DNA of 10,178 bases from Alphaproteobacteria bacterium (lineage in GTDB: Bacteria; Pseudomonadota; Alphaproteobacteria; Puniceispirillales; Puniceispirillaceae), in NCBI GenBank assembly GCA_022425565.1, contig JAKMFG010000055.1:1-10178 (forward strand), written 5' to 3'. Numbering within the stretch: position 1 is the stretch's first letter; every line of letters starts with the position of its first letter. The position numbers and the translations under genes were made by a program. A model generated the notes under the pieces. The model was not told the origin of the DNA. It was given only the letters and a program-made list of their open reading frames with translations, and ran no database searches. Positions 1 to 10,178 of this stretch are shown here, in pieces.

Positions 1-584
1 TGGGTTGCCAGCTCACCGCCACCACCGAACGGAATGTAGGTCGGCATATCGACACCAAGGCGCTTGGCCCAGAGGAAGACAGTCAGGTGGTCGATGGTGC
101 CTGACGAGGTGCCGCCAAACTTCATCGCATCACCGTTCTTCATACCGGCTACAAACTCTTCTGGAGTCTTGTAGGGGCTGGTCTTGCAGTTGACCATCAG
201 GATCTGCGGGTCGTTGGTGCCGCGTGCAATCGGGGCCATGTCATCGACGGTCAGGTCGGTCTTGCCCTTTGCCATGGTGATGGCGTGGCCGACGGTGAAG
301 GTCAGGATAGTGTTGCCATCGGCAGGACGGCTATTGAAATACTGCATCGCAGCAGCACCGCCGCCACCACGCTTGTTGACGACGACCATGTCCTGCTTCA
401 GGTGACGACGTGTCCGGATCATCATCATCCGCGAGTTCACGTCGGTACCACCACCGGCACCGGCATGGGTCACAACTTCAATTGTACCTTCGGCGGCCAC
501 GACAGGAGCCGTGGACATCGCCATGACGCCGGCCATCGACGCAATGCCGACGCCGACTGACAGAATTTTCTTGGTGCTGAGCAT
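1..584 (-). CDS. TTT-family (TctC/Bug-like) periplasmic solute-binding protein, 3' end cut off by window
   Basis: The reading frame opens at ATG 582-584 on the minus strand and stays open to the window edge, giving about 194 residues; the C-terminal third or so is missing compared with the usual length of about 320. Residues 1-31 look like a Sec signal peptide: Lys5-Lys6, a hydrophobic stretch, and an Ala-rich cleavage region near APVVAA. The mature part shows TctC-family marks: VVTHAGAGGGTDVNSR just after the signal, then VVVNKRGGGGAAAMQYF, then FGGTSSGTIDHL. Such proteins bind carboxylates in the periplasm and deliver them to the TctA/TctB membrane proteins, which would lie to the left of the window. 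A strong ribosome binding site, GGGAGGAAAC, lies just before the ATG. An operator-like palindrome lies 155 bases upstream. Family is clear; the ligand is unknown. Confidence 0.9.
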   Translation of the reverse strand, partial: MLSTKKILSVGVGIASMAGVMAMSTAPVVAAEGTIEVVTHAGAGGGTDVNSRMMMIRTRRHLKQDMVVVNKRGGGGAAAMQYFNSRPADGNTILTFTVGHAITMAKGKTDLTVDDMAPIARGTNDPQILMVNCKTSPYKTPEEFVAGMKNGDAMKFGGTSSGTIDHLTVFLWAKRLGVDMPTYIPFGGGGELAT

Positions 585-732: not shown

Positions 733-750
733 TACGGTATACCAAAAAAA
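733..750. promoter_or_regulatory. Operator-like palindrome, site 1 (upstream of TTT binding protein)
   Basis: The core GGTATACC (736-743) is a perfect 8-bp palindrome followed by a run of A (744-750). The right half-site GTATACCAAA is shared with sites at 3807-3823 and 9095-9105 (read on the opposite strand). The form resembles TGGTATACCA operators known for GntR-family (FadR/FCD) regulators of sugar-acid and organic-acid genes. It is centred about 155 bases upstream of the start codon of the minus-strand gene; the left half is degenerate. Confidence 0.6.
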
Positions 751-813
751 TCGGCATAACAATCAGCAAAGTGTCCTATCTCCAACCTGCAATCACCTAA
801 TGCTGTGAAGCGC

Positions 814-854
814 AGACCCGGCTGTCACGAGACCTGGCTGTCACAAGACCCGGC
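814..854. repeat. 16-bp tandem repeat, about 2.5 copies
   Basis: Copy 1 is AGACCCGGCTGTCACG (814-829), copy 2 AGACCTGGCTGTCACA (830-845) and a partial third copy AGACCCGGC (846-854). Copies 1 and 2 differ at two positions. The repeat lies just past the stop codon of the epimerase-like gene. No function is evident; it could be a slippage product or spaced protein-binding sites. Confidence 0.75.
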
Positions 855-874
855 GGCCGTCGCCCACTTCAGGT

Positions 875-1717
875 CTAGTCGACCTTCACACCAGCCTCGA
901 TGGCCCGCTCGACCATATAATCACGACCGGCCAGCATGTCGTCGATGCTGCCGAACCCGTTGCTATAATGGCCGGTATAGCCCGTGCCCTCGATTTTCTT
1001 GAACATGGCACCGAAATCGATTGTCCCTTCGCCCGGCTTCTGATGGATTTCATAAGAACCGTTATTGTCGGCAAGCCGTACCTCGCGGCAGAGGCTGAAA
1101 TCCATGGCGTCGACGAATTTATCGATCCCGACGCCGGGAAGGAAATGTGCGTGGTTCGCGGTGAACGACCAGCGCAGTGCCGGGTTGTCGATCTCGCGGA
1201 AGAAATGCATGCATTCCGCCGGCGTGACCGGCATATAGTTTACCTCGGCGAGAACGGGTTCCCAGTTGAGATTCTCCAGTAGCAGCAGCACATCGTGTTT
1301 GGCAGCATAGTCCGCCACCCGCTTCAACCGGTCGATGGCAGCCTGCATCCTGATTGTCCTGCAGGCCGTGAAGTGATAGCCGCCATGAACAACGATCCAT
1401 TTCGCACCCAGCTTCGGCGCAAGATCGATATAGGCCTTCATATAGGCATCGACCGCATCACGGCAGAAGGGTGAAATCTCGGCAACATTCACGCCCGACA
1501 GGGTATGGAGGCCAAAATCGATACCGCTACCTTCAAGAAGCTCACGAACACCGGCACAGCGCGCATCGTCGAAGGTCTCCAGAGCATTGGGCGCGATGTC
1601 GGTCTGCGCATCAATCACGCAGACATCATTTTCCGCCGCCCAGCGGATCCCGTCCTCAAGCGGCAGGCGCCGCCCGAGATCAATCCCGATGCGCTGTTTC
1701 AGTGTCTTGCCGGCCAT
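875..1717 (-). CDS. Sugar phosphate isomerase/epimerase-like TIM-barrel protein
   Basis: This 280-residue protein belongs to the xylose isomerase-like TIM-barrel group (AP endonuclease family 2 fold), whose members isomerise or epimerise sugars or hydroxy-keto acids. Visible landmarks are LHTLSG (70-75), VVHGGYHF (109-116), LLLENLNWEP (145-154, Glu148), SFTANHAHFLPG (184-195) and VRLADNNGSYEIHQKPGEGTIDF (213-235, described by positions of Asp217, His225 and the PGEG turn). Several residues that bind the divalent metal in D-tagatose 3-epimerase-type enzymes look replaced, which makes the activity uncertain. The start ATG 1715-1717 was chosen because GAGGGGGAAC precedes it; the frame is open further upstream, but that part overlaps the preceding gene. 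It is last in the minus-strand operon, 37 bases after the crotonase gene. The specific substrate is not recognisable. Confidence 0.88.
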   Translation of the reverse strand: MAGKTLKQRIGIDLGRRLPLEDGIRWAAENDVCVIDAQTDIAPNALETFDDARCAGVRELLEGSGIDFGLHTLSGVNVAEISPFCRDAVDAYMKAYIDLAPKLGAKWIVVHGGYHFTACRTIRMQAAIDRLKRVADYAAKHDVLLLLENLNWEPVLAEVNYMPVTPAECMHFFREIDNPALRWSFTANHAHFLPGVGIDKFVDAMDFSLCREVRLADNNGSYEIHQKPGEGTIDFGAMFKKIEGTGYTGHYSNGFGSIDDMLAGRDYMVERAIEAGVKVD

Positions 1718-1754
1718 ATGTTCCCCCTCATCTGGCGACATGGTGCCGCCGGTA

Positions 1755-2567
1755 TCAGCTTCCGGTAAAATCGGGTTTCCGCTTTTCCATGAAGGCGCGC
1801 CGGCCTTCGATATAGTCCTGGCTTGCAAAGCAGGCCTTGACCATCGCGTTGAGCGCATCCAGATCGCGCGCCGATTCATCATCCTGAATGGCCTGCACAA
1901 TCGCCTTCACCGATTCGATCGTCATCGGCGCATTCTCGGAAATCCGTTTGGCGTAATCATCAACATAGGGCGCCAGCATGTGCGGCGGCAGCACCCGGTT
2001 CACGAGACCCATCTCCTGAGCCTCGCCGGCGCTGAACTGCCGCGCGGTAAAGAAGATTTCCTTGACCATGGCCGGCCCCACAAGATTCGCCAGCCGGCGG
2101 ATACCCTCATAGCCATAGCCAAGCCCGAGCTTTGCGGCCGGAATGGCAAACCGGCTCTTGTCCTCGCAGACGCGCAAGTCGCAGGCGACAGCCAGTCCCA
2201 TGCCACCGCCGATGCAGTATCCCTGAATCATGGCGATGGTCGGCTTCGGGAAATGGAACACGGAATCATAGAAGGCCTTGCTGGCTTCGGAATATTTACT
2301 CACATCCTCGGCGCTTGCCCGCTCCTTCTCGAATTTCGAGATGTCCGCGCCAGACGCAAAGGCCTTGCCGCCGGCACCACGCACGACAAGAAGCCGAGCT
2401 TCGGGATCGGCCGCCATGCGGCTCACCTCAGCCGCGCCGGCCTGGTACATGGCGAGCGAAATGGCATTATGCCGCTCGGGGTTGTTGATCACCACATGCC
2501 CGACACGGTCGACGATGCCGGTGAGTAGCTTGCCCTCGGCATGTGCGGTCAGCTGGTCAAATTTCAT
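1755..2567 (-). CDS. Crotonase-fold enoyl-CoA hydratase/isomerase-family protein, possibly a decarboxylase
   Basis: The 270-residue length and motifs fit the enoyl-CoA hydratase superfamily: oxyanion-hole segments FASGADISKF (70-79) and GYCIGGGMGLA (116-126), and a C-terminal DYIEGRRAFMEKRKPDF (249-265). In classical hydratases Glu144 follows GGGC and Glu164 follows a Pro; here the matching positions are Gly124 and Ala144, so both acid/base glutamates are absent. The segment KLGLGYGYEGIRRL followed by VKEIFFTA (146-175) closely recalls E. coli methylmalonyl-CoA decarboxylase, including a Tyr (Tyr151) at the place of its active-site Tyr140; its active-site His66 is Ala74 here. Hydratase, decarboxylase or another acyl-CoA lyase are all possible. 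The start ATG overlaps the stop of the CoA-transferase gene (ATGA, 2564-2567), so the two are translationally coupled. Confidence 0.93.
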   Translation of the reverse strand: MKFDQLTAHAEGKLLTGIVDRVGHVVINNPERHNAISLAMYQAGAAEVSRMAADPEARLLVVRGAGGKAFASGADISKFEKERASAEDVSKYSEASKAFYDSVFHFPKPTIAMIQGYCIGGGMGLAVACDLRVCEDKSRFAIPAAKLGLGYGYEGIRRLANLVGPAMVKEIFFTARQFSAGEAQEMGLVNRVLPPHMLAPYVDDYAKRISENAPMTIESVKAIVQAIQDDESARDLDALNAMVKACFASQDYIEGRRAFMEKRKPDFTGS

Positions 2568-3748
2568 GTTACGTCTCTTGCTGCAAAGTCGGCGATTTCC
2601 GCCTCGGTATAGCCGAATTCGGCGAGGATTTCTCCAGTGTGCTGGCCCTTGGTCGGCGGCGGCCTGCGGATGTCGGATGACGAGCTGCTCATCTTGATCG
2701 GCTGACCGACGATCTGTGCCGGACCGCGTTCCTGGCTGACCACATCGCGGGCCATGCCGAGATGCTGCACCTGCGGGCTCTCGAACACCTGCTGGATGTT
2801 GTTGATCTCACCACAGGGAACACCGATTTCGGCGAATCGTTCGACCCAGTAGGACGTGTTCTTCTGCGAGGTATTCTCGTTGATAATGGCATTCAGCGGC
2901 TTGCGGTTTTTGCTACGTGACGGCTGGTCGGCGTAATCCTCGTGATCCATCCGCTCGTCGGCAAGCTCGTCCTTGAGGCGGAGCCAGATGTGCTGGCCTG
3001 CACAGGCGATGTTGATGAAACCGTCCGAAGTGACGAAGACACCGGTCGGGATCGAGGTCGGGTGGTCGTTGCCTGCCTGCTTTGGCACATTGCCATCCAT
3101 CAGCCAGCGAGCGGCCTGGAAATCCAGCATCGCAATCTGCGCCTGCAGCAGTGATGTCTGTACCCATTGGCCCTTGCCGGTCTTTTCGCGCCCGAGAAGT
3201 GCCAGCAGCACACCCTGCGCGGCAAAACCACCGGCTGTCAGGTCAGCAATCGGAATGCCGACCCGCATCGGACCTTCATCCGGCGCGCCGGTGATCGACA
3301 TCAGCCCACCCATGCCCTGAGCAATCTGGTCAAAGCCGGGGCGGCCCGCCAGCGGACCATCCTGGCCAAAGCCGGAGATCGACGCATAGACAAGCCGCGG
3401 GTTCGCCGCGCTCAGTGTCTCGTAATCAATGCCAAGGCGGAACTTCACATCCGGGCGATAATTCTCAACCACCACATCAGCGGTCTCTGCCATCTTCTTG
3501 AAGATCGCGACACCCGCCGGATCCTTGAGGTTCAGCACTATCGAGCGCTTGTTACGATGCAGATTCTGGAAGTCGGAACCCTCGCGCGAGCCACCCATGT
3601 CGGACCCGGCCTTGTCGGGATTCTCGATCTTGATGACATTCGCACCCCAGTCCGCAAGCTGACGTACACAGGTGGGACCGGAACGCACCCGTGTCAGGTC
3701 AAGAACGGTGTAATCGGAGAGAATATCACTGGCTGGCTCAAACGGCAT
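2564..3748 (-). CDS. CaiB/BaiF (family III) CoA-transferase
   Basis: Family III CoA-transferases move CoA between carboxylic acids through an enzyme-bound aspartyl-CoA thioester. The N-terminus YTVLDLTRVRSGPTCVRQLADWGA (13-36, key LDLTR and GP), VIKIENP (38-44), NKRSIVLNLK (66-75), VVENYRP (93-99), SGFGQDGP (125-132) and VGIPIADLTAG (163-173) are typical. Asp169 in the last motif is the expected nucleophile. Length 394 is normal. ATG 3746-3748 is preferred, with AAGG seven bases upstream; an in-frame TTG at 3818-3820 would add 24 residues with no family resemblance and would place the start inside the operator-like palindrome. It is the first gene of a three-gene minus-strand operon and is divergent from the sulfatase gene. 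CoA donor and acceptor cannot be told from the sequence. Confidence 0.93.
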   Translation of the reverse strand: MPFEPASDILSDYTVLDLTRVRSGPTCVRQLADWGANVIKIENPDKAGSDMGGSREGSDFQNLHRNKRSIVLNLKDPAGVAIFKKMAETADVVVENYRPDVKFRLGIDYETLSAANPRLVYASISGFGQDGPLAGRPGFDQIAQGMGGLMSITGAPDEGPMRVGIPIADLTAGGFAAQGVLLALLGREKTGKGQWVQTSLLQAQIAMLDFQAARWLMDGNVPKQAGNDHPTSIPTGVFVTSDGFINIACAGQHIWLRLKDELADERMDHEDYADQPSRSKNRKPLNAIINENTSQKNTSYWVERFAEIGVPCGEINNIQQVFESPQVQHLGMARDVVSQERGPAQIVGQPIKMSSSSSDIRRPPPTKGQHTGEILAEFGYTEAEIADFAARDVT

Positions 3749-3805
3749 GATCGACCTTGCTTCGCTGACTACCGGCAGCTTTCCGGCGCCCTCGACTTGG
3801 GCAAA

Positions 3806-3823
3806 AAAATTGTATACCAAATT
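3806..3823. promoter_or_regulatory. Operator-like palindrome, site 2 (between divergent operons)
   Basis: The core GTATAC (3812-3817) continues as GTATACCAAATT to the right and is preceded by AAAAATT. The palindrome is imperfect (one mismatch next to the core). It lies 64-75 bases from the starts of the CoA-transferase (minus) and the sulfatase (plus), so one bound regulator could control both. On the minus strand TACAAT, a reasonable -10 element, overlaps the core. It matches sites 1 and 3 over GTATACCAAA. Confidence 0.6.
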
Positions 3824-3891
3824 AAAGGACGATCAGTTTTTTGAAGTCAATTCAAAACTTCAGGTCGGACGACCAACCGGACGCAACACTG

Positions 3892-5394
3892 ATGAAAACG
3901 CTTTTCATTCTCTTTGACAGCCTCAACCGGTCGGCCCTCGGGGCCTATGGTGGAAACATCCCGACACCAAATTTCGACAGGTTGGCATCGCGGTCGGCCG
4001 TGTTCGACAATCATTTTGCGGGCTCTCTTCCCTGCATGCCGGCACGGCGCGACATGCAGACCGGCCGGCTGAACTTTCTGCACCGCAGCTGGGGCCCGCT
4101 CGAGCCATTCGACGACAGTTTTGCCGCGCAGCTGAAATCATCCGGAACCTACTGTCACCTGGTGTCCGATCATTATCATTATTTCGAGGATGGCGGCGCC
4201 ACCTACCACACCCGCTATTCGAGCTGGGATTTTATCCGTGGCCAGGAATCGGACCCATGGGCAGCGATGGTACAGCCGCCGATCGACCGCTTTCGCCAGC
4301 AATATCACCCGCTTCAGTTCGAGGATCACCGTAACGGCCACCGACTGCAGGGCATGATCAACCGCACGAGGGTGAAGGGCGAGGGTGATTTTCCGGTGGT
4401 GCGATGTGTCGATTCCGCCCTGCAGTTCATGACCGAGAATGCCAGCGCGGACGACTGGATGCTGCAGATGGAAACCTTCGACCCGCATGAGCCTTTTCAT
4501 GCACCAGACGGCTACCGTGACGGCGATACCGGCTATGAGGGGCCGGTACTGGACTGGCCGCGCTACAAGACCGTCGACGAGACGCCAGAGGAAGTGGCCG
4601 AGCTTCGCGCCAATTATGCAGCGCTGGTGCGGCTGTGCGATGCACAGCTCGGGCGCATCCTCGACCATCTGGACGAACATGATGGCTGGAACGACACAGC
4701 CATCGTGATGACAACGGATCACGGGTTCCTGCTCTCGGAACATGACTGGTGGGCGAAGAACCGCATGCCCTTCTATAACGAGGTGGCGCATATCCCGCTG
4801 ATGATCTGGCATCCGGAACTGACGGCCGGCGGCGGCCAGCGGGTTTCGGCACTGACCCAGACGACCGACCTGATGCCGACCCTGCTGGCGCTTCATGGCG
4901 AGGCACCAGGGCCGCATGTCCTCGGCAAATCGCTTCTGCCGCTTCTCGACGGGCAAGTGGACAAGGTACGGGACATCGCGCTCTACGGCATTTTTGGTGG
5001 TGCCATAAATGCCACAGACGGGCGGTATAGCTATTTCCGCTATCCGGCCGATATGGAAGGTGCGGCACTGTTCGAATATACGCTGATGCCGGCCCATAAC
5101 CGCAGCCTGTTCACCATCGAGGAACTGGCGCCCGCCACATTGCATCGCGGCTTTGACTTTACCCGCGGCGCGCCGGTGCTGCGCCTGCCGGCACGGGCCG
5201 ATGCCAAACGCTCGCCCCGTCAGGGCGGCTTTGCAGATGCGCACACCGTGCTGTATGATCTGGCTTCCGACCCGCGGCAGATGTCGCCGTGCGAGAACCC
5301 CGAAGCCGAAGCCGCCATCTGCGACGCGATCCGCGCCGAAATGGCATTGCATGAGGCGCCCGCCGAGCTTTATCACCGTTTCGACCTGAGCTGA
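3892..5394 (+). CDS. Type I (formylglycine) sulfatase-family hydrolase
   Basis: This 500-residue protein belongs to the sulfatase branch of the alkaline phosphatase superfamily, which hydrolyses sulfate (sometimes phosphonate or phosphate) esters. CMPAR at 48-52 matches the CxPxR signature, so Cys48 should be converted to formylglycine by a formylglycine-generating enzyme encoded elsewhere; the TGR at 57-59 also fits. The N-terminal metal-site segment LFDSLNRSALGAYGG (7-21) has Asp9 but Ser10 where many sulfatases have a second Asp. A second metal-site segment TTDHGFLLSEHDWWAKN (274-290) carries Asp276, His277 and Lys289. No signal peptide is seen, so it is probably cytoplasmic and acts on an imported small molecule. 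ATG 3892 begins where the family N-terminus (MKTLFILFDSLN) begins, but its ribosome binding site is poor; an in-frame TTG at 3841 preceded by AAAGGA is an alternative. Substrate unknown. Confidence 0.92.
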   Translation: MKTLFILFDSLNRSALGAYGGNIPTPNFDRLASRSAVFDNHFAGSLPCMPARRDMQTGRLNFLHRSWGPLEPFDDSFAAQLKSSGTYCHLVSDHYHYFEDGGATYHTRYSSWDFIRGQESDPWAAMVQPPIDRFRQQYHPLQFEDHRNGHRLQGMINRTRVKGEGDFPVVRCVDSALQFMTENASADDWMLQMETFDPHEPFHAPDGYRDGDTGYEGPVLDWPRYKTVDETPEEVAELRANYAALVRLCDAQLGRILDHLDEHDGWNDTAIVMTTDHGFLLSEHDWWAKNRMPFYNEVAHIPLMIWHPELTAGGGQRVSALTQTTDLMPTLLALHGEAPGPHVLGKSLLPLLDGQVDKVRDIALYGIFGGAINATDGRYSYFRYPADMEGAALFEYTLMPAHNRSLFTIEELAPATLHRGFDFTRGAPVLRLPARADAKRSPRQGGFADAHTVLYDLASDPRQMSPCENPEAEAAICDAIRAEMALHEAPAELYHRFDLS

Positions 5395-5424
5395 ATTTCT
5401 GACATATCTGGACCCGTATCCCCG

Positions 5425-6930
5425 ATGAGCAACCACCTCTATGACGGCGTGTTCGCGCCCCATGCCGACAGCACCAAGACCTTCCTCTACACAGCGGACA
5501 GGGAAATCAGCTTTGCCGAATTCACGGCGCTGACCGACAGGATTGCCGCGATGCTCGTGGCGCAGGGACTTGCCCCCGGAGACCGGGTGGCGGTGCAGGC
5601 CGACAAGTCGGTGCTGCTGTTCGCCCTCTATGCGGCGACGGTCAAGGCGGGCGGGGTCTATCTGCCGCTCAATACCGGCTATACCCCGGCCGAGCTGGAC
5701 TATTTCCTTGGGGACGCAAAGCCGCGAATTGTCGTGACATCAAGCGCCGCGGCAGAGGCCATTACCCCCATAGCCGCACGGATCGGCGCTGTCCTGATGA
5801 CACTTGACGGCGATGAGAGCGGCAGCCTGTCCAAGGCCGCGATGCAGCATGAGGGCCCGTTCACGGCAGTGCCGCGCGGATCGGAAGACCTTGCCGCCAT
5901 TCTCTATACCTCCGGCACCACCGGCCGATCCAAGGGCGCCAAGCTCTGCCACCGGAACCTGCGCTCAAACGCCGAGGTGCTTCGTAAATACTGGCGCTTC
6001 ACCGCCGATGACACGCTGCTTCACATGCTGCCCATCTATCACACGCACGGGCTGTTCGTGGCCAGCAACCTGCTGGCGATGGTCGGCGGGTCGATGATCT
6101 TCCTGCCGAAATTCTCAGCCGATGTCGCGCTGGAATGGATGCCGAAAGCCACCTCGATGATGGGTGTGCCGACATTCTACACCCGGCTTCTGGACCATGA
6201 GGGGTTCACCGCCAAAGCCTCGTCGCATATGCGGCTGTTCATTTCCGGGTCGGCCCCGCTGCTGGCAGAGACGCATCGCCAGTTCGAGGAGCTGACGGGC
6301 ATGGCGATCCTCGAGCGCTACGGTATGACCGAAACCAACATGAGCACCTCGAACCCGTTCGAGGGCGACCGCCGCGCCGGCACCGTCGGGTTTGCGCTTC
6401 CCGGCGTGGAAATCCGGATTGCCGATGCGAAGACCGGCACACCGCTGCCCGATGGCGAGATCGGCATCATCGAGCAACGCGGCGACAATGTCTTTCTCGG
6501 CTATTGGGAAATGCCGGAAAAGACAGCCGAATCTTTTCACGAGGACGGCTTCTTCATCACCGGCGACATGGCGGTGCGTGATGCCGACGGCTATATCAGC
6601 ATTGTCGGCCGCGACAAGGACCTGATCATTTCCGGCGGGCTGAATGTCTATCCCAAGGAAGTGGAAGGCATGATCGACGATATCGAGGGAGTCCTGGAAA
6701 GCGCCGTCATCGGCGTGCCGCATCGTGACTTCGGCGAGGCCGTGGTGGCCGTCGTGGTGCGCGAGGACAAGGGGCTGGAAGCCGCCATGGTCGAGGCCGC
6801 GCTTGCCGGACAGCTGGCGAAATTCAAGCAGCCGAAAGCTGTTCTCTTCACCGACGCCCTGCCACGCAACAGCATGGGCAAGGTTCAGAAGGCCGAGCTT
6901 CGCAAGACCCACACGGACCTGTTCGCCTGA
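5425..6930 (+). CDS. matB: Malonyl-CoA synthetase (MatB-like acid-CoA ligase)
   Basis: This 501-residue AMP-forming ligase strongly resembles rhizobial MatB, which converts malonate (and often methylmalonate) with ATP and CoA into the CoA thioester. The start MSNHL, the segment VYLPLNTGYTPAELDYFLGDA (78-98, key LPLN and ELDYFLGDA), FISGSAPLLAETH (272-284) and MTETNMSTSNPFEG (301-314) are MatB-like as I remember that family. General ligase motifs are present: YTSGTTGRSKG (161-171), ERYGMTETN (297-305), GD at 380-381, GRDKDLIISGGLNVYPKEVE (395-414), and the C-terminal catalytic Lys486 in RNSMGKVQK. The gene is 30 bases downstream of the sulfatase and presumably cotranscribed; the ribosome binding site is weak. 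Because the neighbourhood has a decarboxylase-like crotonase and a carboxylate transporter, the acid may be a substituted malonate instead of malonate itself. Confidence 0.92.
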   Translation: MSNHLYDGVFAPHADSTKTFLYTADREISFAEFTALTDRIAAMLVAQGLAPGDRVAVQADKSVLLFALYAATVKAGGVYLPLNTGYTPAELDYFLGDAKPRIVVTSSAAAEAITPIAARIGAVLMTLDGDESGSLSKAAMQHEGPFTAVPRGSEDLAAILYTSGTTGRSKGAKLCHRNLRSNAEVLRKYWRFTADDTLLHMLPIYHTHGLFVASNLLAMVGGSMIFLPKFSADVALEWMPKATSMMGVPTFYTRLLDHEGFTAKASSHMRLFISGSAPLLAETHRQFEELTGMAILERYGMTETNMSTSNPFEGDRRAGTVGFALPGVEIRIADAKTGTPLPDGEIGIIEQRGDNVFLGYWEMPEKTAESFHEDGFFITGDMAVRDADGYISIVGRDKDLIISGGLNVYPKEVEGMIDDIEGVLESAVIGVPHRDFGEAVVAVVVREDKGLEAAMVEAALAGQLAKFKQPKAVLFTDALPRNSMGKVQKAELRKTHTDLFA

Positions 6931-7848
6931 TCAGGAGCCGGCGGCGGACCGTATCTGCCGCTCGCGCCTGAGAATGAAGATCGAGGAGGCGATGATGATC
7001 GTGCTTCCGATGATGATCTCGGCCGTCAGCACCTCACCAAACATCAGAATTCCGGCGGCAATCCCCATCGGGATCGACAGGTAATGCAGCGGCGCCAGGA
7101 TGCTTGCCGGCACCAGCTTGTGGCTGAGGGCGAGGCCGAACTGCTGGAAGCTCGACAGCACGCCGACGGCAACCAGTATGGCAAGGTCGGTGCTGGTCGA
7201 TGGCATTCGTGCGCCGGTCACCACCACGATGCCGGCAAAAATCAGCGCGCCGCAGCCATTGTGCCAGACGGCGGTGGTTGCCGGGCTGTCCCGCCGACCG
7301 AGCTTGCGAAGCGAGATCATCATCATCGCCCCGAAAAAGGGTGCGCCGAGCCCGAACAGCAGCCCGGCCATGGTCCATCCCGCAGCGGCCGACGGGTTCA
7401 GCAGCAGCATTGTCCCGCCAAACCCGACGATGACAGCCGACCAGCGGCGCCAGCCCACCCTCTCGCCAAGAAGCAGCGGCGCAAGGAAGGTGACGAACAG
7501 CGTGAGCGTCTGGAACAGCACGGTCACAAGCGACAGCGCCATCAGGTCGAGCGCGGCATAGAAACAGGCAAGGCTGATCAGTCCGGTGACGATGCGGATG
7601 GCCAGTGTTTTCGGTGCTGTGATGGAAAGCGCCTTGCCGCCGCGTTGCCAGATTGCCGTTCCCACCAGCAATGGCAGGCACAGGAGATATCTGAACAGCA
7701 GGACGGTGACGGTGTCGATATCGGCCGAGACCAGCTTCACCAGCACCGAGACCGCAACCATGATTGCGATCTCTCCAACCGCGACGCTGACGCCGACCGG
7801 CAGGTTGACCTGGCCATCCTCGGCCGCATTCCCGCCAGCACCGCTCAC
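6931..7848 (-). CDS. EamA/DMT-superfamily permease
   Basis: The 305-residue protein is very hydrophobic and appears to have about ten transmembrane segments in two EamA repeats, ending in the basic tail RRERQIR. The first repeat ends around FLAPLLLGERVGWRRWSAVIVGFGGTMLLL and the second around MGIAAGILMFGEVLTAEIIIGSTIIIAS (motifs LLLGE and LMFGE at the same place in each repeat), the usual EamA pattern. Members export or import small metabolites; no ligand can be assigned. The start is GTG 7846-7848, supported by AGGAA eight bases upstream. The gene follows the enolase-superfamily dehydratase after 33 bases and is probably cotranscribed, so it may move a sugar acid or pathway product. Its stop codon directly abuts the stop of matB on the other strand. 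Confidence 0.9.
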   Translation of the reverse strand: MSGAGGNAAEDGQVNLPVGVSVAVGEIAIMVAVSVLVKLVSADIDTVTVLLFRYLLCLPLLVGTAIWQRGGKALSITAPKTLAIRIVTGLISLACFYAALDLMALSLVTVLFQTLTLFVTFLAPLLLGERVGWRRWSAVIVGFGGTMLLLNPSAAAGWTMAGLLFGLGAPFFGAMMMISLRKLGRRDSPATTAVWHNGCGALIFAGIVVVTGARMPSTSTDLAILVAVGVLSSFQQFGLALSHKLVPASILAPLHYLSIPMGIAAGILMFGEVLTAEIIIGSTIIIASSIFILRRERQIRSAAGS

Positions 7849-7881
7849 CGCAATGTTCCTCGCGGTGTGGCCGGCATCCGC

Positions 7882-9057
7882 CTATTCCTCGATCTCGAAA
7901 TGTTCGAGATGCTTGTCGGTGATGGTTATGCCGAGGCCAGGCAGATTGTCATCCAGCTGCAGGAAGCCGTCATCATCGGCATCGGGATCACCTTCAAAGA
8001 TGTAATAGAACAGCTCGTTCCCGACCTCGACATCGAAGACCGGGAAATATTCCGCGATCGGGCAATTCATATTGGCCATGGTCAGATGGTAGTTATGCAT
8101 CTGGCCGGCATGCGGAATCACCGGTATCTGATGCGCCTCGGCGACGGCGTTGATTTTCTGTGCCGCGGTGATGCCGCCGACCCGGTTGGTGTCATATTGC
8201 AGGACCGAGACGGCCTTCTCCTGGAGAAGCTGCGCACAGCCAAGAAGCGAATATTCATGCTCGCCACCAGAGATCGGGATCGGCCCGCGGTTCAGCTCGG
8301 CATAGCCACGAAGATCATCGGCAATCACCGGCTCTTCCAGCCAGCGCGGCTCGAACTTCTCCAGCTTCGGGATCATCCGTTTCGTATAATCGAGGTTCCA
8401 GCCCATATAGGCCTCGAGCATCAGGTCACGCTCCCAGCCGATAGCCTCGCGCACCGCCTCGACCCGCTTCAGGTTCTCGCGCATACCCGCCATACCGTCG
8501 CGCGGCCCGTATCCAAATCGCGTCTTGAACCCGACATAGCCCTTCTTCATGGCTTCCTCGGCCTCGGCCTGCATGCTGTCGATCGGGCCGGCATAGAGCT
8601 TGGAATAATAGCAGGGGATCTTTTCCTTGGTGCGTCCGCCGAGGAGCTTGAAGACAGGCTTGCCGGCAAGTTTGCCCATCAGGTCCCAGATGGCGATGTC
8701 GATGGCGGAGATCGCCGTCATGCCGACGCCCTTGCGACCCCAGGCATGGGTGCGACGGTACATCTTCTCCCAGATCCAGGCATAGTCGAACGGATCCTCG
8801 CCAATCACCATCGGCGCGTAATATTCATCGATGGCCTTTTTCACAAGCGAGGGCGCGAGCGCCGCATTGCCGATGCCGATGGTGCCGTCGGTGGTCTCCA
8901 CCTCGCAGGTCAGCCACTGGTGGAACCGGAATGACTGCATCGCGTCGCCGCGTATGCCCAGCGCGTCTGACGCATTCGTGCAGAAATTGCCGGTGGGCGG
9001 GACGGTCGGCCCCTTCCAGTTCCAGACGCGTGTGCGGATGGATTTGATCGTAATCAT
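7882..9057 (-). CDS. Enolase-superfamily (mandelate racemase/MLE) dehydratase, L-rhamnonate dehydratase-like
   Basis: This 391-residue protein has the enolase-superfamily layout: an N-terminal capping domain (to about 125) and a barrel with catalytic residues on successive strands. Visible are KTR at 178-180 (KxR motif), Glu215 in LMLEAYMGW, Glu241 in RWLEEP, Glu266 in ISGGEHEYS, Asp289 and His316 in [12 protein letters not shown]. The spacing of 215, 241 and 266 fits the three magnesium ligands, with Glu in place of the usual Asp at the first. The C-terminal part ([23 protein letters not shown]) recalls proteins annotated as L-rhamnonate dehydratases, which turn a sugar acid into a 2-keto-3-deoxy acid. 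ATG 9055-9057 follows a GGGGGG-rich ribosome binding site. It heads a two-gene operon with an EamA permease and has an operator-like palindrome 44 bases upstream. The family is clear; the exact sugar acid is a guess. Confidence 0.9.
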
Positions 9058-9090
9058 GTGACGTCCCCCCGATACCCAAACTCTGTTTTC

Positions 9091-9119
9091 AGTATTTGGT
9101 ATACCGCTTTCAGACGCAA
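9091..9119 (-). promoter_or_regulatory. Candidate sigma-70-type promoter of the dehydratase operon
   Basis: Read on the minus strand, TTGCGT (9114-9119) and AATACT (9091-9096) are separated by exactly 17 bases. The match to consensus is modest. The GGTATACC palindrome lies wholly within the spacer, the position expected if a repressor blocks polymerase. No experimental start site is known. Confidence 0.35.
9095..9105. promoter_or_regulatory. Operator-like palindrome, site 3 (upstream of the dehydratase)
   Basis: TTTGGTATACC contains the perfect palindrome GGTATACC (9098-9105). On the minus strand it reads GGTATACCAAATACT, sharing GTATACCAAA with sites 1 and 2. It is centred 44 bases upstream of the dehydratase start codon. 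The likely binder is a GntR-family regulator, none of which is encoded in this window. Confidence 0.6.
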
Positions 9120-9175
9120 GCCTTCAAGAGCCGAGGTAAAACAGGCATGACGGGCGACGGTTAATTTACGGGAAA

Positions 9176-9252
9176 TGGTGATCCCGGAGGGACTCGAACC
9201 CCCTACCTACAGATTAGGAATCTGTCGCTCTATCCTGATGAGCTACGGGACC
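9176..9252 (-). tRNA. tRNA-Arg (anticodon CCT)
   Basis: The minus strand folds as a complete 77-base cloverleaf with encoded CCA (9176-9178). The acceptor stem pairs GGTCCCG with CGGGATC (one G-T wobble), the D stem pairs GCTC with GAGC, and the anticodon stem ACAGA/TCTGT closes a loop TTCCTAA, giving anticodon CCT for the arginine codon AGG. The T arm is GGGGG-TTCGAGT-CCCTC with one G-T pair. It lies 24 bases after the metal-binding protein gene and upstream of the dehydratase operon. The tRNA 3' end points towards the catabolic island, the usual side for integration of mobile islands, though no integrase or second attachment site is seen here. Confidence 0.97.
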
Positions 9253-9552: not shown

Positions 9553-9960
9553 TTATCCCGTTACCATCAGATCACGTGAGGCGGCTTCGCACCCGATCAG
9601 CGCCTGCTTGCGGGCAACGCCCCAGGCGTAGCCGCCGGGATGACCGCTGGTGCGGATCACCCGGTGGCAGGGGATCAGCACCGCCACCGGATTGGCGCCA
9701 ATGGCCCCGGCCACGGCGCGCGAAGCATCCGGCCGGCCGATCGAGCTGGCCACATCGCCATAACTTGCCAGCGCCGCCGGCGGAATTCGCAGAAGCGCCT
9801 CCCATACCTTGATCTGAAACGGGCTGCCGCGAAGATGCAGGCGTACCGGCTCGATCCCCGACCAGTCGCCGGACATGGCGCCGGCCAGAGCCGCCGCCGC
9901 ATCGTCATGAAGCGCGGCATCGCCCGGCATGATGTCGGCTGCCGGGAACATGCGGCGCAA
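9553..9960 (-). CDS. Methylated-DNA-[protein]-cysteine S-methyltransferase domain (C-terminal part of a split Ada-like gene)
   Basis: The frame encodes the DNA alkyltransferase domain that removes methyl groups from O6-methylguanine onto its own cysteine. Landmarks are FQIKVWEALLRIPPAALASYGDVA (48-71; FQ.KVWEAL and SYGD), SRAVAGAIGANP (80-91, Arg81 as the presumed base-flipping finger) and the active site PCHRVI with Cys98 (97-102). Numbering uses TTG 9958-9960 as start, but no convincing ribosome binding site precedes it. ATG 9949-9951 is another option. The same frame continues upstream, interrupted only by TAA at 10000-10002, into an AraC-type segment typical of AraC/alkyltransferase fusions, so this is probably the lower half of a broken gene. 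The domain itself looks complete and could still work if translated on its own. Confidence 0.75.
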   Translation of the reverse strand: MRRMFPAADIMPGDAALHDDAAAALAGAMSGDWSGIEPVRLHLRGSPFQIKVWEALLRIPPAALASYGDVASSIGRPDASRAVAGAIGANPVAVLIPCHRVIRTSGHPGGYAWGVARKQALIGCEAASRDLMVTG

Positions 9961-9999
9961 CCGTTCGCCCCCGGGCCCCTTATCCCCGGCGCCCCGCTC

Positions 10000-10178
10000 T
10001 TAACCCTCGTCATCAAAGGCCATATGGCAGATGCCACGCGGGGTCGAGGCGATGAAGAGCCGGCCGAACAGGCTGTCGGCATGACCATAACGGATGGCGA
10101 GCCCGGCGCCGCCGCGCGCATACTCGCCCGGGGTCATGCCCTCGACCGAGACAAACAGGTCGTGGAGCCGCCCAGGGC
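10000..10178 (-). pseudogene. AraC/Ada-like regulator-alkyltransferase fusion, interrupted by an in-frame TAA and cut by the window edge
   Basis: On the minus strand from the window edge the frame reads LHDLFVSVEGMTPGEYARGG, then IRYGHADSLFGRLFIASTPRG and ICHMAFDDEG, then TAA (10000-10002). This matches the linker between the AraC-type helix-turn-helix and the alkyltransferase domain of Ada-like fusion proteins (EAMTPGEY...GLTIRYG...FG and a following RGI). The downstream alkyltransferase frame (9553-9960) is in exactly the same phase, with 13 sense codons between the stop and its first possible start. Only one base change would restore a single protein. A real nonsense mutation, a sequencing error or a natural split are all possible. 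Confidence 0.65.

Follow-up and report, generated by a model that had tools for sequence, protein, structure and literature searches.

A conserved palindrome and a regulator gene in relatives point to a probable GntR/FCD regulon for sugar-acid import and breakdown in SAR116-like bacteria

GntR-type control of tripartite transporters together with sugar-acid genes has been predicted before. The available part of PMC5507952 describes two such systems in Halomonas: AraR2, with a predicted regulon of the araD-araT-araR2-araA operon, in which the regulator gene lies within the operon of the L-2-keto-3-deoxyarabonate (L-KDA) dehydratase AraD, plus a TRAP transporter for L-arabinonate; and GguR, predicted to control a tripartite tricarboxylate transporter (TTT; TctABC) with aldarate catabolic genes. 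Here we describe a locus of this kind from a SAR116-like alphaproteobacterium (Puniceispirillaceae). The stretch analysed, called the window (10,178 nt), is the complete contig C71 of a fragmented assembly, G000 (2.29 Mb, 333 contigs, 82.6% complete). Three copies of one operator-like sequence, each upstream of a catabolic operon, are with good probability the operators of a single dedicated GntR/FCD repressor, here named REG, whose gene would most likely lie in the assembly gap between contigs C70 and C71, and which would control operons for the import and breakdown of a sugar acid. REG looks like a further regulator of the AraR2 and GguR kind, with an operator and a gene set of its own. Within what that source describes, AraR2 is linked to a TRAP transporter, not a TTT one, and no sulfatase, CoA-transferase or MatB appears in its description, while GguR serves the galactarate/glucarate hexose-diacid pathway. 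Both comparisons are of gene content.

The exact 10-mer GTATACCAAA occurs three times in the window without mismatch, at 737-746 and 3812-3821 on the plus strand and at 9095-9104 on the minus strand; an earlier reading made from the letters of the window (the sequence-only reading) had already noticed these copies, and only its third position (9096-9105) was off by one. That reading had also placed every copy in the promoter region of a metabolic gene, with one between divergent operons, and indeed all three are intergenic relative to the likely real genes. Widened to 14 positions and taken without strand, operator 1 (TACGGTATACCAAA, 733-746) lies upstream of the TTT receptor gene tctC, operator 2 (AATTGTATACCAAA, 3808-3821) between the divergent CoA-transferase and sulfatase operons, and operator 3 (TTTGGTATACCGCT, 9095-9108) upstream of the gene for a dehydratase of the mandelate-racemase (MR)/enolase superfamily, MR1; operator 1 overlaps an opposite-strand frame of 83 codons, which we take as spurious. 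Chance recurrence of the 10-mer has a negligible probability: 2000 first-order Markov versions of the window held 0.002 copies on average and never more than 1, against the 3 observed, and the core GTATAC, present three times in the window and only at these sites, reached at least three copies in 2 of 200 shuffles. A search allowing two mismatches favours chance, since the 5 matches found (2.33 expected) were reached in 19 of 200 shuffles and are not significant; the exact copies, together with the presence of the site upstream of orthologues in relatives, nevertheless refute it.

A search of all 2.29 Mb of the assembly for TNGTATACCAAA, one mismatch allowed, gives 9 places, 5 of them on C71 and C70, which hold about 0.9% of the bases. 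The other four lie within genes (C14, C308), within a weak frame (C291) and 16 bp ahead of a gene whose product, judged by eye, appears LysR-like (C306); frequent occurrence inside genes, which would have spoken against the sequence-only reading, is thus not seen at zero to one mismatch. With two mismatches the search becomes unspecific (72 matches, and more with a reversed control), and a loose search of 61 relatives gave many counts near the control level. On C70, one site lies upstream of an aldehyde dehydrogenase (ALDH) gene and a weaker one between the genes of a FAD-linked dehydrogenase and an aminotransferase.

The sites are conserved upstream of orthologous genes; the second result that would have spoken against the sequence-only reading did not occur either. 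Scored in family members as a site within 300 bp upstream, and skipping loci without 300 bp upstream on the contig, it was present before ALDH in 13/13 cases, tctC in 10/11, the CoA-transferase gene COAT in 13/14, the sulfatase gene SULF in 8/8 and MR1 in 7/7. It was found before the gene of the DapA-family protein in 4/17, all four being loci where no ALDH gene is placed before DapA, and before MatB in 3/10. Nine internal genes had it in 0 of 120 cases (REG 0/17, PdxA 0/15, the second MR enzyme MR2 0/12, tctA 0/12, tctB 0/11, EPIM 0/15, ECH1 0/15, ECH2 0/15, DMT 0/8), and unrelated open reading frames (ORFs) in 2 of 104, both adjoining a regulated gene. The aligned promoter rows are loci with a called site, so that the alignments measure sharpness whereas the upstream test measures presence; in them (8-10 rows per promoter) the columns of the site reach a mean majority identity of 0.94-0.99, against 0.54-0.58 in the flanks. 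Invariant runs of at least six positions are the sites themselves and a single GCCTTT upstream of ALDH; the runs are GGTATACCAAA at operator 1 (8 rows), ATTGTATACCAAA at operator 2 (9 rows) and ATTTGGTATACC at operator 3 (8 rows). Palindrome matches with up to two mismatches number 23 in G001, G002, G003 and G018, 14 inside the locus and 9 outside. Seven of the latter were inspected, G001:C6:108745 and G018:C19:5 being left out: L211, L212, L213, L218, L220 and L222 are within frames and L217 is between weak frames.

The gene order in relatives supplies the probable regulator. Close matches to MR1 occur in 8 of 61 genomes, G000 included, and in G001, G003 and G018 the gene orders of C70 and C71 are joined as a single locus with REG between DapA and PdxA. 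Its left part runs from the FAD dehydrogenase (minus strand; G001 and G003) through aminotransferase, crotonase, a site, ALDH, DapA, REG and a PdxA-like gene (plus strand) to a second MR enzyme (plus strand; G001 and G003). The right part has the TTT genes ending in tctC (minus strand; the tctA frame of G001 was missed by the simple gene finder), a site, the epimerase-like, crotonase and CoA-transferase genes (minus strand) and a second site, followed at the far right by the sulfatase gene (in G001 only of the three) and the MatB-like gene (plus strand), then the permease and dehydratase genes (minus strand) and a last site. Seen from the window, REG thus sits beyond tctA and tctB, where the sequence-only reading had suggested looking for a GntR gene; its proposal of one probable regulon is supported by the conserved sites and by a regulator within the locus of the relatives, and the regulon exceeds the window, the ALDH-DapA-REG operon on the C70 side being part of it. 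Of the 61 family genomes, 17, spread over four genera, carry REG. It is labelled as a neighbour of DapA in 10 of 14 fetched contexts; in the other four (G014, G024, G062, G064) the gene finder missed REG, though the protein search places it there. In G005, whose dehydratase is 99% identical to that of the window, REG stands beside DapA and runs into a gap of Ns. Because of the synteny in relatives and the G005 arrangement, the missing gene of the window's organism is most likely, and most simply, placed in the C70-C71 gap.

Operator and regulator also occur together beyond the family. In a survey of the best 80 of 400 REG relatives, 31 loci carry a REG of at least 48% identity and 49 one of at most 39%. 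The half-exact motif TTTGGNATNCC or its complement is intergenic in 23 of the 31 close loci, roseobacters included, against 4 of the 49 remote ones; TTTGGNATNCCAAA with at most one mismatch is found in 20/31 and 2/49, and the best permuted control reached 3/31 in both comparisons (of 19 permuted motifs in the first). In Marinovum algicola, Sulfitobacter delicatus and Tritonibacter mobilis the site reads TTTGGCATTCCAAA and stands 39-90 bp in front of the dehydratase gene, behind which come DapA and REG.

By its domains, REG is a member of the GntR family, FCD (FadR) subfamily: the G001 protein has an N-terminal GntR winged helix (PF00392, 54.1 bits, cut-off 27) and a C-terminal FCD domain (PF07729, 86.4 bits, cut-off 24.3). 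REG proteins were aligned in two sets, A1 with 11 of the 17 family proteins and A2 with proteins from 25 of the 31 close loci and 10 of the 49 remote ones (identity at least 48% and at most 39%, respectively). D147, H151, H195 and H217, which we take to be the metal-site residues of the FCD domain, are kept in 25/25 near orthologues. The AlphaFold model (pLDDT 88) finds its best Foldseek matches in VanR-type repressors; REG resembles the structures of Atu1419/VanR, PmiR and AlkR in predicted fold and FCD histidines, and the identity in these alignments is 20-28%. In an alignment by eye, the position of FadR Arg35 is occupied by Arg in all 25 near orthologues and in none of the 10 remote proteins; an Arg here reportedly favours G in the TKGT box (PMC4494728). 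Operators of the FadR subfamily consist of TKGT/ACMA boxes with GT and AC 2-3 nt apart (PMC4494728); the consensus TTTGGTATACCAAA is such a palindrome, with a spacing of 2 nt, and the window's own copies are imperfect palindromes.

A different regulator of these sites, either another GntR protein of the genome (C60, C125, C145) or a hexuronate repressor of the genuine UxuR/ExuR type, is improbable. The assembly does encode four GntR proteins above the cut-off, with one further match below it, and at the start of the C145 gene stands ATGGTGTATCAATTT, which loosely resembles the sites; but the C60, C125 and C145 regulators were not seen in the locus stretches of seven relatives (those of C188 and C114 were not looked for), whereas REG lies inside the locus and travels with the motif into roseobacters. 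The sequence-only reading had likened the motif to UxuR/ExuR operators, and this holds in part. UxuR and ExuR, like REG, belong to the FadR subfamily, and the 2-nt spacing is shared with UxuR sites (GT-AT-AC), as it is with HypR, MdcY, PrpR and GntR, while ExuR has 3 nt (PMC4494728). As a protein, REG is far from both and was rejected as either, with 47.2 bits for UxuR (NF007588, cut-off 442) and 33.7 bits for ExuR (NF008571, cut-off 396), whose spacing does not fit either. UxaC, UxuA and UxuB had no match among the matches listed for 18 scanned proteins. A NanR-type direct repeat (TGGTATAW, in the available part of PMC4494728) was rejected as well, since each site is one palindrome and the aligned flanks contain no tandem copy. 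On C145 itself (L033, about 1423-1440), the GntR gene, HutC-like by eye, starts over ATGGTGTATCAATTT, possibly its own operator.

The position of the sites bears on how REG would act. Promoters were placed as the best common placement across the aligned rows and scored out of 12. The putative tctC promoter (734-762, minus strand; TTGTTA-17-TACCGT; 8 rows, mean 6.9) has its -10 inside operator 1, and the putative dehydratase promoter (9098-9127, minus strand; TTGAAG-18-TATACC; 8 in each of 8 rows) has its -10 inside operator 3. Operator 2 starts at the end of the putative -10 of the CoA-transferase promoter (3821-3850, minus strand; TTGACT-18-TTTAAT; 9 rows, mean 8.2, minimum 5) and spans the transcription start, and at ALDH the operator lies over the -10 (mean 7.9). 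The operator thus seems to cover the -10 or the start in four of the five modelled promoters, which suits repression through polymerase blocking and makes it the likely mode. GntR proteins can also activate, and a REG that binds these sites to switch transcription on, or does so at some operons while repressing others, would suit the unconvincing placement on the sulfatase/MatB side and the weak one at tctC; with the operator over the -10 or start, and not upstream of the -35, in those four promoters, we consider this unlikely. Still less probable is a mere promoter box of the TATAC type. TATACC, TACCGT or TACCAT do serve as the putative -10 in three promoters, but the element is palindromic, lies between two divergent operons, stands at a variable offset (-15 to -29) from the putative -35, tracks close REG orthologues and rarely remote ones, and has few near-exact copies in the genome.

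For the repressor reading, we infer binding, repression and induction as follows. REG would be encoded in an operon ALDH-DapA-REG, continued in most relatives by the PdxA-like gene and often by a second MR enzyme; its dimers would bind the palindrome TTTGG-TATA-CCAAA (wider form TTTGGNATNCCAAA), overlapping the -10 or the start, and so keep transcription off. A sugar-acid intermediate entering the FCD pocket would relieve the block. The operons so released would import the acid through the TTT transporter and degrade it via a 2-keto-3-deoxy-L-pentonate to 2-oxoglutarate. Since REG follows ALDH and DapA on the same strand, it probably represses itself. In the family to which REG belongs, according to the available part of PMC4494728, divergent operons that share one site are usually both under its control.

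Several results weigh against this reading: (i) assembled G000 has no match to REG, its two FCD proteins lie on other contigs, and we infer the presence of REG in the window's organism from synteny and from G005. (ii) G024 lacks the site at tctC and COAT, and the weak aminotransferase/FAD-dehydrogenase site is kept in just 6/15 and 6/13, a poor retention for which it was excluded from the core regulon. (iii) The promoter placement is weak at tctC and not convincing on the sulfatase/MatB side (mean 6.1/12), and a stricter scan for consensus promoters gave no match at any of the three sites. (iv) With two mismatches TTTGGNATNCCAAA does not discriminate (30/31 against 28/49), and the NATN form of the motif was picked after inspecting the roseobacter and other REG loci. 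(v) The strict site is absent from 8 of the 31 close loci, of which two are 4-5 kb contigs (L149, L150) and four have variants (L139, L140, L160, L161), while in L156 and L158 no site was seen.

The enzymes indicate a likely Weimberg-type route from an L-pentonate-like acid to 2-oxoglutarate, because the catalytic residues of DapA match those of L-KDA dehydratase and an ALDH resembling alpha-ketoglutaric semialdehyde dehydrogenase (KGSADH) adjoins. The C70 DapA-family protein aligns with L-KDA dehydratase across residues 6-305 of 305 (360 bits) and keeps the equivalents of K171, E173, Q143 and E200 (FKIES, IQDAP and GEEA aligned to 7c0c and 3fkk; those of Gln143 and Glu200 found by hand counting from Lys171). 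In the available part of PMC9795676, Lys171 (Schiff base), Glu173, Gln143 and Glu200 are the catalytic residues of the enzyme. The best match of the C70 ALDH is the KGSADH family NF042993, at 506 bits against a cut-off of 770; its context suggests a KGSADH-like role. Both MR enzymes fall under every NCBIfam cut-off among the matches listed. As far as that source describes the Azospirillum L-KDA dehydratase and the non-phosphorylative (Weimberg-type) pentose pathway, our locus shares the DapA-family enzyme beside a KGSADH-like ALDH and differs in its likely enolase-superfamily upstream dehydratase, CoA branch, sulfatase and TTT transporter. We therefore propose, tentatively, that REG together with its operators constitutes a new orthologous regulon, reaching from SAR116 through roseobacters to other marine lineages, for an undescribed marine L-pentonate-type sugar-acid route, possibly with a sulfated or CoA-activated substrate, in which a Weimberg-like core (MR dehydratase, L-KDA dehydratase, KGSADH-like ALDH, PdxA-like oxidoreductase) would be joined to a CoA-transferase/crotonase/MatB/sulfatase branch. 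Literature searches gave, among the matches listed and in the parts available, no GntR-regulator title for TGGTATACCA and no title naming the REG regulon for SAR116 GntR, Roseobacter GntR/arabinonate, 2-keto-3-deoxy-L/TTT regulons or GguR.

The window begins with tctC (3-584, minus strand; PF03401), truncated by the contig end. The CoA-transferase operon on the minus strand consists of the family III CoA-transferase gene COAT (2564-3748; PF02515), the enoyl-CoA hydratase/isomerase family gene ECH1 (1755-2567; NF004781 above cut-off) and, as its last gene, EPIM for a xylose-isomerase-like TIM barrel protein (875-1717; PF01261). On the plus strand follow SULF (3892-5394; PF00884, with CMPAR seen by eye in the translation and no NCBIfam family above cut-off) and the gene of a MatB-like AMP-forming acyl-CoA ligase (5425-6930; NF005702 above cut-off). 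An EamA/DMT-type permease gene (6931-7848; PF00892) and MR1, an acid-sugar dehydratase gene (7882-9057; PF13378, PF02746), are on the minus strand; the closest solved chains of MR1 are 3sqs, 3stp and 3ssz (756-772 bits), and a literature search by these PDB codes returned polymer work only. In G003, G018 and G066 no sulfatase gene was called, and operator 2 there separates the CoA-transferase gene from the MatB-like one. In the roseobacter loci L160 and L161, MR1 is near several weakly sulfatase-like genes (24-30% identity) and a TctA-like gene, which hints that the substrate may be sulfated; of the two loci only L161 has REG labelled, its place in L160 coming from the homologue survey. The C70 aminotransferase (L038, 6236-7417) resembles the L-aspartate-glyoxylate aminotransferase BhcA of the beta-hydroxyaspartate cycle (453 bits, cut-off 650). 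Operator 3 adjoins a tRNA-Arg gene (anticodon CCT; 9176-9252, minus strand); in G001, just beyond the corresponding operator, some 9 kb of sequence holds ORFs whose third-position GC is low and may be a mobile insert. An Ada/OGT-like protein, named by eye (9553-10178, minus strand), has an in-frame stop in the linker joining its two halves; the G008 relative lacks this stop, and in G005 the region falls into an assembly gap.

Taken together, scattered sequence signs become one testable regulatory circuit, in which the likely missing regulator of a fragmented assembly is named. Otherwise unassigned genes of uncultured marine bacteria, those for the TTT receptor, sulfatase, CoA-transferase and MR dehydratase, would be tied to a single sugar-acid pathway. 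With REG, dehydratase and DapA genes and the operator present in the records of Marinovum algicola FF3, Sulfitobacter delicatus DSM 16477 and Tritonibacter mobilis NBRC101030, orthologues of REG in cultured strains make its function and its inducer accessible to testing.

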